Of a stretch of DNA of 44,289 nucleotides, positions 1 through 4,764 are shown piece after piece. The stretch is from a virus: the IMG/VR virus record IMGVR_UViG_3300023119_000049, positions 1 through 44,289 of that record; one strand, 5' to 3'. How positions within the stretch are numbered: position 1 is the stretch's first letter; each line of letters begins with the position of its first letter. The translations under genes and the position numbers were made by a program. A model generated the notes under the pieces. That model searched no databases, was not told the origin of the DNA, and was given only the letters and a program-made list of their open reading frames with translations.

Positions 1-548
1 TTATGCACACCAGCCATAGCACATCCTTTTTGCATCACTAATGAATTCCAAGCATCTCTTGTTCCTGAAGTTGGAGGGGGTGCCATAATTTTAATTTCTT
101 GATTTGGAAATCGTGGATGAATCTGACTCCAATTTGTTGGTTTTGGTCCATGCTCTGCCATTGCTTTCCATAACTCACCAACAGTTAGATTCATTCTTCT
201 TTCTCCTGCTTTGTTGGCAAAAACAATACCATCATTTCCTACTTTGATTTCAATAATATCAGTCACGCCATTCTTCGCACACAATTCCTTTTCGCTACCT
301 TTGATAGCACGGGAAGCGTTGGTGAAATCGGGATGTTGTGGTCCTAATCCAGCACAAAAAAGTTTCATTCCTCCACCGGTTCCTGTTGATTCTACAATCG
401 GTGTTTTAAATCCATTTCGTCCATGTTTTTCAGCAACAACTGTTGTGAACGGATAAACGGTTGATGAACCTACAATTTTAATATGTTCTCTTGCGAATGC
501 GGTTGCGGATAGTGTAATAAGTGTGAGTAGTAGAAAAAGTTTCTTCAT
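1..548 (-). CDS. pstS: Phosphate-binding periplasmic protein PstS (partial, C-terminus off window)
   Basis: The start ATG is at 548-546, and 182 codons are visible before the frame leaves the left edge. The N-terminus is a Sec signal peptide (MKKLFLLLTLITLSATAFA) followed by the mature start REHIKIVGSSTVYPF. GSSTVYPF, ESTGTGGGMKLFC and PTSGTRDAW are typical PstS phosphate-contact segments. Full-length PstS is usually 320-350 residues, so about half is present. In the family the protein binds phosphate in the periplasm for the PstCAB transporter. Phage copies known from marine myoviruses are thought to boost host phosphate uptake during infection. Tandem Pho-box-like repeats lie 67-105 bases upstream and a tmRNA gene lies beyond them. 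PstC, PstA and PstB are not in the window, so it would have to work with the host transporter. Confidence 0.93.
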   Translation of the reverse strand, partial: MKKLFLLLTLITLSATAFAREHIKIVGSSTVYPFTTVVAEKHGRNGFKTPIVESTGTGGGMKLFCAGLGPQHPDFTNASRAIKGSEKELCAKNGVTDIIEIKVGNDGIVFANKAGERRMNLTVGELWKAMAEHGPKPTNWSQIHPRFPNQEIKIMAPPPTSGTRDAWNSLVMQKGCAMAGVH

Positions 549-614
549 AAATGAATTCTCGGCTAAATGTTAGAAAAAGAGGCGACATTACCTCATTTCT
601 ATTTAGAAAAATAA

Positions 615-653
615 TGTTAGATTTCAGTTAGATGAATGTTAGGATTGTGTTAG
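615..653 (-). promoter_or_regulatory. Tandem Pho-box-like direct repeats upstream of pstS
   Basis: Read on the minus strand, CTAACA occurs at 653-648, 642-637 and 620-615, and CTAACT at 631-626. The starts are spaced exactly 11 bases apart with 5-base AT-rich spacers. An 11-bp period of a 6-8-base half site is the geometry of PhoB boxes. A fifth, out-of-phase CTAACA lies at 573-568. The array sits between the tmRNA and the pstS start, where a PhoB-activated promoter would be expected. The half site differs from E. coli CTGTCAT, so binding by the host PhoB is inferred. Confidence 0.72.
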
Positions 654-659
654 GATGGT

Positions 660-905
660 GAGACTGTTTTGGTGACAAGGAACAGCCTCAATCCTCGTCT
701 ACATCATGCTGCTAGCGCAACCTGTGCAGAGGTATAATCAGCTGGGTTTGCAGTTGATTTAGTTTGATGTAGGTCATCACCCTCTTTGTACTCCTCAGTA
801 TCTTTTTCCCAAGTCGAATCTATTCGGCCCCCTACACTATACAAAATCTTGCATAGTCTGGTGGAGCCGGGGACGAACTGCCCGCCCCGTCCTTAGCGAA
901 TATTT
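660..905 (-). ncRNA. ssrA: tmRNA, circularly permuted two-piece form
   Basis: The minus strand reads acceptor piece first, then coding piece. The acceptor piece (about 905-859) has a T-arm containing GTTCG and ends in CGGCTCC-A-CCA, with CCA at 861-859. The coding piece starts at 831 with GGGGCCG (831-825), which pairs all seven bases with CGGCTCC (869-863) and includes the G3-U70 wobble that specifies alanine. It is followed by the tmRNA D-loop signature GATTCGAC. The tag reading frame at 751-704 gives ANPADYTSAQVALAA and a TGA stop. The 27-base intervening loop (858-832) forms a 9-bp hairpin (857-849 with 844-836). A short helix joins CTTGG (813-809) to CTAAG (896-892), as expected for H2. 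The coding piece probably ends in the hairpin at 689-660. The outer ends are approximate. It would rescue stalled ribosomes together with host SmpB and RNase processing. Confidence 0.92.
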
Positions 906-912
906 TCCTGAA

Positions 913-1698
913 TCAACATACAAATTTCACATTTTTCTTTAGTCTACCTTTTATTAGCCCAGTAGTATCTTCATACGGTGCTAAATAATATTCTTTTTCA
1001 CCGTCATTATACCATTTTAGTCCAAACGTACTTCTTTCTTGTATACCTTTTCTTTTTCTTGTCCATTCCGTTAGAAGTATATAACCTTCCTTTTTTATTT
1101 TTGTTCTCATTTTAAACATATCTTCTAATTTTGCATCAGGGTGAATATACCAAGGCTTATTGTATTGCGAATTTTTTTCACCCTTTTTCGAATCAGACAT
1201 TCTTTTTTTCGTTCTTTTCTTTTGTTCAGGCGTTCTATTTTTTAAAGCTTTTTTACCTAATTCACTGCAAAGTTTTTGATGTTCCTTGTTGTAAGCAAAA
1301 TTTCCAGATTTCTTTTTTGATTCTTCTGAAAATATACCAACACCTTTTTCTATGCATGTTTTTCCAGCTTTTCTGCTTATTTGTTTTTTTAGTTCAGAGT
1401 CTGAATTAATGTGAGTAAAACCACCATCACCCTCTTCAGGTTTTAAATTAGCCCAAGAAGGATCTTCGACAACATTCCAAAGTTCTGAGTAGTAAAGACC
1501 TCTTTCTTTTATTTCTTCTTTATCCTCAGATTCAAATAGGATTGTTGTTGTCACATTTTTTTTCCCACCACCATGAACTTTCAAATGATTTAGCCACCTT
1601 GTGCCAGATCCGGCATATCTATCAGGATTTTTTGCCTCAGTTTTCCCGAGATACTTCAAACCACTTTTATGTTCTTTTACATATAATTTTATTGTCAT
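913..1698 (-). CDS. GIY-YIG family homing-type endonuclease
   Basis: This 261-residue protein begins with a variant GIY-YIG module: KLYVKEH...LKYLGKT near residues 4-20, then the family's YAGSGTRWLNHLKVHG segment at about 28-44 and an E-rich helix. The middle (about 95-180) is basic with NUMOD3-like repeats of the ESKKKSGNF and PEQKKRTKKRMSDSKKG type, which bind DNA in free-standing phage homing nucleases. The C-terminus has a KWYNDGEKEYYLAPYED segment. It ends eight bases upstream of the tmRNA acceptor piece, so it may have been delivered next to that RNA gene, or its transcript may run into the tmRNA precursor. The precise target cannot be told from sequence. Confidence 0.8.
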   Translation of the reverse strand: MTIKLYVKEHKSGLKYLGKTEAKNPDRYAGSGTRWLNHLKVHGGGKKNVTTTILFESEDKEEIKERGLYYSELWNVVEDPSWANLKPEEGDGGFTHINSDSELKKQISRKAGKTCIEKGVGIFSEESKKKSGNFAYNKEHQKLCSELGKKALKNRTPEQKKRTKKRMSDSKKGEKNSQYNKPWYIHPDAKLEDMFKMRTKIKKEGYILLTEWTRKRKGIQERSTFGLKWYNDGEKEYYLAPYEDTTGLIKGRLKKNVKFVC

Positions 1699-1704
1699 AT
1701 ATTC

Positions 1705-1863
1705 TTAATAATCTAATTTTATATATTCAAGCAAAGGACCTAATCTTTTAGTCCCATTATCATATTGTAGTTCCATCCTCACCTCTACTTTTTCAGAGCC
1801 ATCACCTTCTTTTGGAATGTCACCACAGGCAACAAGTAAAAAACAGACAAATAGATATCTCAT
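1705..1863 (-). CDS. Small predicted lipoprotein
   Basis: A 52-residue frame with a signal peptide and lipobox, MRYLFVCFLLVAC|GD, with Cys13 as the expected lipidated residue. The rest (DIPKEGDGSEKVEVRMELQYDNG...) is polar. Its ATG overlaps the TGA of the upstream gene as ATGA, which suggests translational coupling. It stops seven bases before the GIY-YIG gene. The family is not recognised. It would be anchored at the outer membrane or periplasmic face of the host. Confidence 0.6.
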   Translation of the reverse strand: MRYLFVCFLLVACGDIPKEGDGSEKVEVRMELQYDNGTKRLGPLLEYIKLDY

Positions 1864-3218: not shown

Positions 3219-3317
3219 CTATGTGTGAGCCAGAAAAATAGCCCACAATCCATACAACGAACCAAAAATAATTATAACAGCAAATAGTTCAAGATAAAAT
3301 TGTGTTTTACTTCCCAT
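3219..3317 (-). CDS. Tiny membrane peptide
   Basis: A 32-residue frame, MGSKTQFYLELFAVIII followed by FGSLYGLWAIFLAHT. It is nearly all one hydrophobic helix with a short polar N-terminus. It overlaps the end of the large upstream gene by 11 bases, and a GGATGAGG stretch just before the ATG may serve as a ribosome site. It fills the gap before the lipoprotein gene, as phage micro-genes often do. Function unknown; it may not be translated. Confidence 0.35.
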   Translation of the reverse strand: MGSKTQFYLELFAVIIIFGSLYGLWAIFLAHT

Positions 3318-4764
3318 CCTCATCCTTGATACCAAAGATTTTTTTGATTTCGATTGTGATCGGTTTCTTTGGTCCAATGATATCATTGAAATGATGAATT
3401 GTTTTTTTCTTTTTATTTTTCATAATAAATGTTCCTTCTTTCATGTTGATTCTTGCGACAGGTTCAATTGACTTGTTTGAACTTGAAACAATAAGATCAG
3501 GTAGTGACTTGAGCTTTTTGGTGAGGCCTTTGACTTTCTCAGGTTTCAACCAGTCAGCCGGCTTGATGTTATGAACATCATACAAATCATTCTGAACTAC
3601 AGCATATAAATCTTTTTCTTCTAAATGTCTTTTGAGCATACTAAAATAATTCAAGATGAGTAGTGACCACTTTCCTTTGGTAAATCCAACTTCTTTTCCG
3701 GTGATTGCTTCAGTCGCAGCCAAATAAGAAACAAAGTAATTCGAGAACGCACCTTTTTCATTCGTGAAACTGATGTATTCAATCTGTTCCTTTTTCTTCG
3801 GTCCCACTGATTCTGGATAATTTCGATTATAATTCCAATCGACAACTTCTGCCTTTTGTTTACTGGTGTCGAAGAAAACAGCCTGTATTGGTTCGGACGG
3901 ATGAATAATTCCCTCACCGCTTTTATCAAAAGCACCATCGTATCCTAACGTACGAAACATCTTATTCCACATTGTCGTCATTTTTATTCTTAATGATTCA
4001 CGAATATCATCATGTTTATATGTAACTACACCATTCTCTTCATCAAATTCAATTTCATTAAGCATATAATAACAAGCAACTCTTGTCAAATTCCATAATT
4101 CACTTCCTGCCGAATCAATTCTTGATTCATCTGGTGCTTGAGTAATAATTGCGTAGATTTCTTTTTGATACCATTCAGGTGTATCATCAATAGAATCTTT
4201 GCGATTTTTCTTTGCCCAATCAAACATCATTTTCGAAAGAATATTTTGGACTTTTTTTAAATCAGCCCTACGATAATTATTCAAATCAAGCATTTTACCT
4301 TTTGCACGAATCAAATAGAAACCTGGCTGGTCAGCAGCAAAAGGAATATCTTTAAAAGTTCGTGTCTTTTTATCAGCATATCTTGAGAAAAGTTCTTTCA
4401 CAGGATAAGTGTAGAGACCATTTGGTGTTTTATATTTTGAATGTGGATTGATTCCTAACTTATATCCAGAAGTGTTTTTATCTTTGACATTTCTCAGTCT
4501 TTGTTTTTGTCGATGCTTATTGTCTAGATTACCAAGAGCAGAGGCAATTGCACTTCCAAGAATTGTTTCTTTACTTGTGTCTGGTTTACCTCTCTCGGTT
4601 TTCTTTGTCACTTGTTTATGACTTTGTTTACCAACATCAGACACAAAAGTGATATAGATATCACTATCGTTACGATATGGCCATAAGGTTTCCCAGATAC
4701 CAATTTTAGGATTTTTTTCTGGGTTTCTTCTTGCTTCTGTTAAAAATTGACTAAATGATTTCAT
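3307..4764 (-). CDS. Capsid-targeted internal protein candidate, paralogue of the protein at 24443
   Basis: A 485-residue protein beginning MKSFSQFLTE|ARRNP. The first 11 residues match the T4 internal-protein capsid-targeting peptide (MKTYQEFIAEA), and LTE|A fits the T4 prohead protease rule [IL]xE|[AG]. The body shares segments with the product at 24443: ARRNPxxNP, the SKYKTPNGLYTYPV segment, a PFAxDxP stretch, and GYDG...GEGIIHPSEPIQAVFF (about residues 285-315). The last of these resembles the C-terminal part of phage ADP-ribosyltransferase-like folds, but the full catalytic triad is not identified. Role inferred: a virion-packaged protein ejected with DNA. GAAGGA before the ATG is the ribosome site. 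Confidence 0.75.
   Translation of the reverse strand: MKSFSQFLTEARRNPEKNPKIGIWETLWPYRNDSDIYITFVSDVGKQSHKQVTKKTERGKPDTSKETILGSAIASALGNLDNKHRQKQRLRNVKDKNTSGYKLGINPHSKYKTPNGLYTYPVKELFSRYADKKTRTFKDIPFAADQPGFYLIRAKGKMLDLNNYRRADLKKVQNILSKMMFDWAKKNRKDSIDDTPEWYQKEIYAIITQAPDESRIDSAGSELWNLTRVACYYMLNEIEFDEENGVVTYKHDDIRESLRIKMTTMWNKMFRTLGYDGAFDKSGEGIIHPSEPIQAVFFDTSKQKAEVVDWNYNRNYPESVGPKKKEQIEYISFTNEKGAFSNYFVSYLAATEAITGKEVGFTKGKWSLLILNYFSMLKRHLEEKDLYAVVQNDLYDVHNIKPADWLKPEKVKGLTKKLKSLPDLIVSSSNKSIEPVARINMKEGTFIMKNKKKKTIHHFNDIIGPKKPITIEIKKIFGIKDEDGK

Follow-up and report, generated by a model that had tools for sequence, protein, structure and literature searches.

The window analysed here, a 44,289-nt stretch of viral DNA (IMGVR_UViG_3300023119_000049), carries on its minus strand a permuted two-piece tmRNA gene that is nearest to the alphaproteobacterial type; tmRNA is a bacterial RNA that releases ribosomes which have stalled and adds a tag to incomplete proteins. 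Scanning the window against all of Rfam with cmscan gave a single match over threshold, to RF04321 (tmRNA_permuted), which runs from 923 to 704 on the minus strand, covers the model from end to end (1-213 of 213) and scores 74.5 bits (E 1.3e-12) against a curated gathering score of 47. An earlier reading of this DNA, made from its letters, had proposed such a gene and a covariance search as its check, and the outcome of that search is positive, by way of RF04321. The match to alpha_tmRNA itself (RF01849) is local and partial (76-179 of 355) and, at 41.9 bits, lies below that model's gathering score of 50. Among the older permuted models it is still the best, cyano_tmRNA giving 13.8 bits and beta_tmRNA no match in the window, which bears out the affinity first claimed. 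The gene resembles both RF01849 and RF04321 in its piece order, acceptor stem and T-arm, P2 helices and tag frame. Its conserved extent is 662..924, the RF04321 match being extended by an outer P2 strand and a 3' hairpin that are kept in a sister phage.

The acceptor (3') piece is encoded upstream of the coding (5') piece, and an insert separates CCA from G1 at 831; this order is seen both in the sequence and in the model alignment, as the first reading had it. All the features that follow lie on the minus strand. The acceptor piece (859..924, delimited by the sequence and the covariance alignment) contains the 5' strands of P2, the T-arm, the 3' strand of the acceptor stem (CGGCUCC, 863..869), A73 at 862 and CCA at 861-859. 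Together with GGGGCCG at 825..831 the 3' strand makes a 7-bp acceptor stem with a G3-U70 pair; stem, G3-U70 and CCA stand where they had been placed. G3-U70 and A73, which give the stem its alanine identity, are the same in the sister, as are the rest of the stem and CCA. The intervening 27 nt (832..858), removal of which is expected, form the hairpin that had been described, a perfect 9-bp stem (857-849 with 844-836) closed by the loop GAUU, with a z of about -4.2 against shuffles. The coding piece would begin at a predicted RNase P cut before 831, and GAUUCGAC ends at 813.

The T-arm (870..888) is unusual in length among viral permuted tmRNAs, 19 nt made up of GGGGCG, the loop GGCAGUU and CGUCCC with an apparent 6-bp stem, 2 nt more than the 17-nt arm (5-bp stem, 7-nt loop) of alpha_tmRNA. 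The 17-nt length is found in 42 of 57 distinct retrieved arms, some of the 21-22 nt entries being pattern artefacts. The same 6-bp/GGCAGUU geometry recurs on one other viral contig (L044), with a different stem sequence. GGCAGUU is odd next to tRNA, yet the alpha consensus has GGGCgGUAC at this place. Variants such as the 6-bp T-stem could serve as test objects for the tolerance of SmpB and EF-Tu.

The two pieces are joined by three P2 helices: an outer one of UUUGUAU (918..924) with GUACAAA (791-785), a middle one of UCAG (908..911) with CUGA (798-795) and an inner one of CUAA (893..896) with UUGG (812-809). This is the H2-like pairing that had been noticed between the pieces, and it is kept in the sister. 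The proposed 5' end of the acceptor piece near 905 did not hold up: a start there is unlikely because it would lose the outer 7-bp helix at 924-918, and the gene is longer, about 924-662. The outer strand extends into the upstream ORF at its 3' end, and in the sister, too, there is overlap between the upstream strand and a small ORF at its end. A duplex-energy control for P2 was modest (p 0.07 and 0.04), so the argument for these helices rests on covariation.

The tag reading frame occupies 704..751, with codons at 751-707 and the stop UGA at 706-704, and encodes ANPADYTSAQVALAA, the 15-residue tag ending ALAA that had been read from this strand. After the stop comes a hairpin (662..687; GGCUGUU, loop CCUUGUCACCAA, AACAGUC) that is conserved in the sister. 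Further downstream of the tmRNA, a terminator-like hairpin with a T-run may lie at 579..594; this is a weak indication from a consensus scan, which found two such hairpins in the scanned stretch against 0.7 expected.

The contig encodes a T4-type replication set, namely the gp43 polymerase (E 1e-212), UvsX, the gp41 helicase, the gp61 primase and NrdA/B, and it is a fragment of a T4-like phage, as was first proposed. The nearest annotated phages are 42-52% identical in these T4-type proteins. The sister phage is much closer (IMGVR_UViG_3300020469_000011, G012/L135/L137; 146.5 kb), with gp43 72% and UvsX 85% identical, and its tmRNA matches RF04321 over the full length at 88.7 bits. Some 35-40 kb separate the tmRNA from uvsX in both phages; it lies on the downstream side and the same strand, past the families phrog_2295, GP88-like and phrog_4301 that the two have in common. 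Since strand, distance from uvsX and shared families match, the two tmRNA genes are probably orthologous. The downstream neighbours differ from those of the window, being glutaredoxin and peroxiredoxin genes in the sister. The sister RNA shares with the window the acceptor stem, GAAUAGAUUCGAC, the GGGUGAUGACC motif, a 9-bp insert hairpin, a 15-residue tag and the 3' hairpin loop; it differs in most helix sequences, in an 18-nt T-arm and in scoring above threshold with the alpha model (67.2).

Comparison with a sister phage had been suggested as a further check, and acceptor stem, pairing and tag frame are all kept. The two tmRNAs, aligned by MAFFT without regard to structure, have 67% of aligned positions in common over the compared region. 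The P2 helices and the 3' hairpin together have 22 pairs; canonical pairing holds in all 44 cells, and both sides have changed in nine of the pairs. When the partner strand was slid by 1-3 columns, 43-52% of positions paired, with 0-1 two-sided changes, and 3 of 500 column shuffles reached the observed number of two-sided changes; the covariation is that between two distinct sequences. P2 accounts for 15 of the pairs and eight of the two-sided changes: three of seven pairs in the outer helix, all four in the middle helix and one of four in the inner helix. The 3' hairpin has a nearly identical loop on a covarying stem. The T-stem, which keeps its pairing in the sister as CCGAGU/ACUCGG, and the insert hairpin, again of 9 bp in the sister with a different sequence, add ten two-sided changes in a manual register. 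Because the pairs stay canonical despite so great a difference in sequence, selection maintains the helices joining the two pieces.

The frame of the tag is kept as well. The sister tag, ANNNDYAPVLAAIAA, has 15 codons like that of the window and seven identical residues. Both tags start with AN, have DY at positions 5-6 and end in an Ala-rich stretch, with the tail ALAA in the window and AIAA in the sister; D and A codons differ synonymously, and the stop is UGA in the one and UAA in the other. The ANDNFA-type start that is common in other retrieved tmRNAs is absent from the window tag. Some permuted tmRNAs on other viral contigs (L021, L037, L046; L068, L078, L120; L090) have long tags of 22-31 residues, and within one such group the tags all contain ALGFADLT and the insert GGTGGCTTATGTAATCCCTT is conserved.

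A second contig, L116, matches window positions 1-1863 at 98.4% and carries an identical tmRNA. The absence of tmRNA differences was considered as evidence of selection and rejected: the whole block 549-1710, 1,162 nt holding an ORF as well as the tmRNA, is identical, so the identity reflects recent shared ancestry. Positions 1711-1842 have 24 differences, and the identical block suggests recent recombination or transfer. Searches for more distant members were negative: no sister loci were found with the ORF at 3307-4764, the loop of the 3' hairpin retrieved no further members among the stored loci, and annotated phages yielded nothing meaningful when searched at the DNA level with the tmRNA of the window or of the sister. 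The absence of a tmRNA from other UvsX relatives is uninformative, most being short fragments; of the longest three, G003 and G007 stop under 20 kb beyond uvsX, and G006 stops near the expected site of the gene.

Phage-borne tmRNAs have been counted before. They were found in 402 of 18,146 phage genomes, as 133 unique structures, 53 of which were suggested by ARAGORN to be two-piece, and 50 of these 53 came from marine or aquatic phages (PMC9004378). A 2025 database, the source of RF04321, lists 79 unique phage tmRNAs (PMC11915505). The closest parallel is the Methylophilales phage Melnitz, which is T4-like, has a two-piece tmRNA of alpha type and infects OM43, a host that does not belong to the Alphaproteobacteria (PMC9004378). 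Like that of the window, the Melnitz gene (MZ577095) is permuted and of alpha type, lies in a marine T4-like phage, matches RF04321 over its full length (113.4 bits) and has an ALAA-ending tag, ANDNYVPVDYALAA. It differs in its higher score, in being found by ARAGORN, in exceeding the alpha_tmRNA threshold and in the segment between CCA and the coding piece, which is over 100 nt (L299 640-775) against 27 nt in the window. Also, a glutamine riboswitch lies behind the Melnitz tmRNA, whereas the Rfam scan of the window gave no riboswitch match. The tmRNAs of the Bxz1 group, Wildcat and phage G are one-piece and not permuted, unlike that of the window. These mycobacteriophages (the Bxz1 group, Wildcat) and Bacillus phage G provided earlier cases of phage-borne ssrA (PMC4131195). 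Rhodobacter phage RcSimone-Hastad has a permuted tmRNA as well (L300 412-825, tag ANDNVRMDAQALAA), for which the isolate record holds no annotation. Since two-piece tmRNA of alpha type is already published for phages, Melnitz among them, the window gene belongs to a known kind, as a new and divergent member.

The sequence-only reading had also held that the gene identifies the host group. This part fails: Melnitz, with its alpha-type tmRNA, infects a host outside the Alphaproteobacteria, and the type of tmRNA therefore does not name the host. Assigning a host through the tmRNA was tried and abandoned, given this carriage across classes and a scan with the conserved tRNA-like-domain pattern that returned only four rumen or Holosporaceae-type genomes.

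The divergence of the window and sister tmRNAs is considerable. A 135-sequence tree groups them as a clade with 100/100 support, and their inner branch (0.34) is among the longest; since the best scorers of a genome sample supply most of its 31 bacterial rows, the tree is no guide to which bacteria are nearest. Most alphaproteobacterial tmRNAs outscore both: of 115 genomes sampled from that class, 105 were over the cut-off, and nearly all of their best matches had 98-166 bits, against 74.5 for the window. Other viral copies score nearly as low (L136, 77.5 bits; L090, 76.1 bits). ARAGORN reports nothing in the window and also misses the sister and L116. It misses 46 of 122 viral permuted loci (one or two of the 122, such as L036, may be pattern false positives), and 38 of the 46 lie more than 400 bases from an end of the stored stretch. 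Its silence on the window is thus a blind spot of the program. As the published count of two-piece phage tmRNAs was made with ARAGORN, that count is probably too low. These comparisons support a divergent new member rather than a new class; what the window adds to the known kind is a divergent, structurally well-supported phage branch. A stronger proposal, which is rather unlikely, is that the window and sister represent a phage-only tmRNA branch, long apart from host genes and hidden by ARAGORN-based annotation, in which T-arm geometry (13 against 12 stacked acceptor/T-arm pairs) and tag have drifted, possibly along with a phage-specific role or choice of substrates.

Anatomy, conservation of structure and frame, and position in a phage are all seen here, and the gene is most likely a functional phage-encoded permuted ssrA which performs trans-translation with host factors. 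Processing, charging and tagging would follow known tmRNA biology, and so would the gain to the phage. Two cuts in the transcript, one at the CCA end (859) and one in front of G1 (831), would free the 27-nt hairpin insert, which would be discarded, and the acceptor and coding pieces would stay paired through the acceptor stem and P2. The G3-U70/A73 acceptor would be charged by the host's alanyl-tRNA synthetase, and the RNA would enter stalled ribosomes with host SmpB. A search for an SmpB gene came up empty in the sister record and in three other relatives, so the phage would have to borrow the protein from its host. Translation would resume at the GCA codon at 751 and add ANPADYTSAQVALAA, the ALAA end of which would act as a degron of the ClpX/Lon kind. 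The phage may gain from ribosome recycling during mRNA turnover in infection, from proteolysis of truncated proteins, or from both.

Trans-translation might instead serve another purpose, the phage tag differing from that of the host so as to redirect which proteins, for example those of the host, are degraded. The missing ANDNFA-type start would suit such a purpose, and a role in host-protein degradation has been suggested for Melnitz (PMC9004378), but the C-terminal degron is ordinary and this reading is rather unlikely. Less probable again is a decoy, an RNA that, instead of performing trans-translation, would inhibit or divert that of the host by binding either host SmpB or stalled ribosomes. 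There is precedent in mycobacteriophage DS6A, whose RNA consists of a tRNA-like domain only, and such a molecule is reported to inhibit tmRNA (PMC11915505, PMC4131195). A decoy has no need of a tag frame, though, and the complete 15 codons, stop and Ala-Ala end kept in both phages, with synonymous changes, make it less likely. That the gene is a decaying relic, captured from a host and out of use, is very improbable: its low covariance score and divergent sequence would fit, as would an upstream ORF that resembles a mobile endonuclease gene and may have moved with the tmRNA, but all tested pairs are canonical in both phages at about two thirds identity, the positions in the two genomes match and the tag frame is kept. 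Finally, a bacterial gene brought in by host contamination or misassembly is scarcely credible, even though some IMG/VR contigs are misclassified and such genes abound in the sampled Alphaproteobacteria, since T4-like replication genes lie on the same contig, the gene occurs in two independent phage assemblies and the species genomes scanned by pattern hold no near-identical gene.

Trans-translation with host factors remains the preferred reading, and two neighbouring elements can be described beside it. The ORF at 913-1698 (minus strand, 261 aa) abuts the tmRNA with a slight overlap. It matches NUMOD3 weakly, below the cut-off (E 0.0026), has distant relatives in Vibrio phages and finds no match in the sister record. 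It may encode a free-standing homing endonuclease able to mobilise the tmRNA. On the other side lies a pstS-like gene, the complete copy of which in L116 has a PBP_like_2 domain, and in the interval separating it from the tmRNA the minus strand carries, at 616-654, four CTAAC motifs with an exact spacing of 11 nt, an array resembling a Pho box. Control of phage pstS by PhoB is known in cyanophages (PMC10976474); the CTAAC motif differs from the cyanobacterial Pho-box consensus. In the sister, two CTAAC motifs lie 11 nt apart at about L137 14400.
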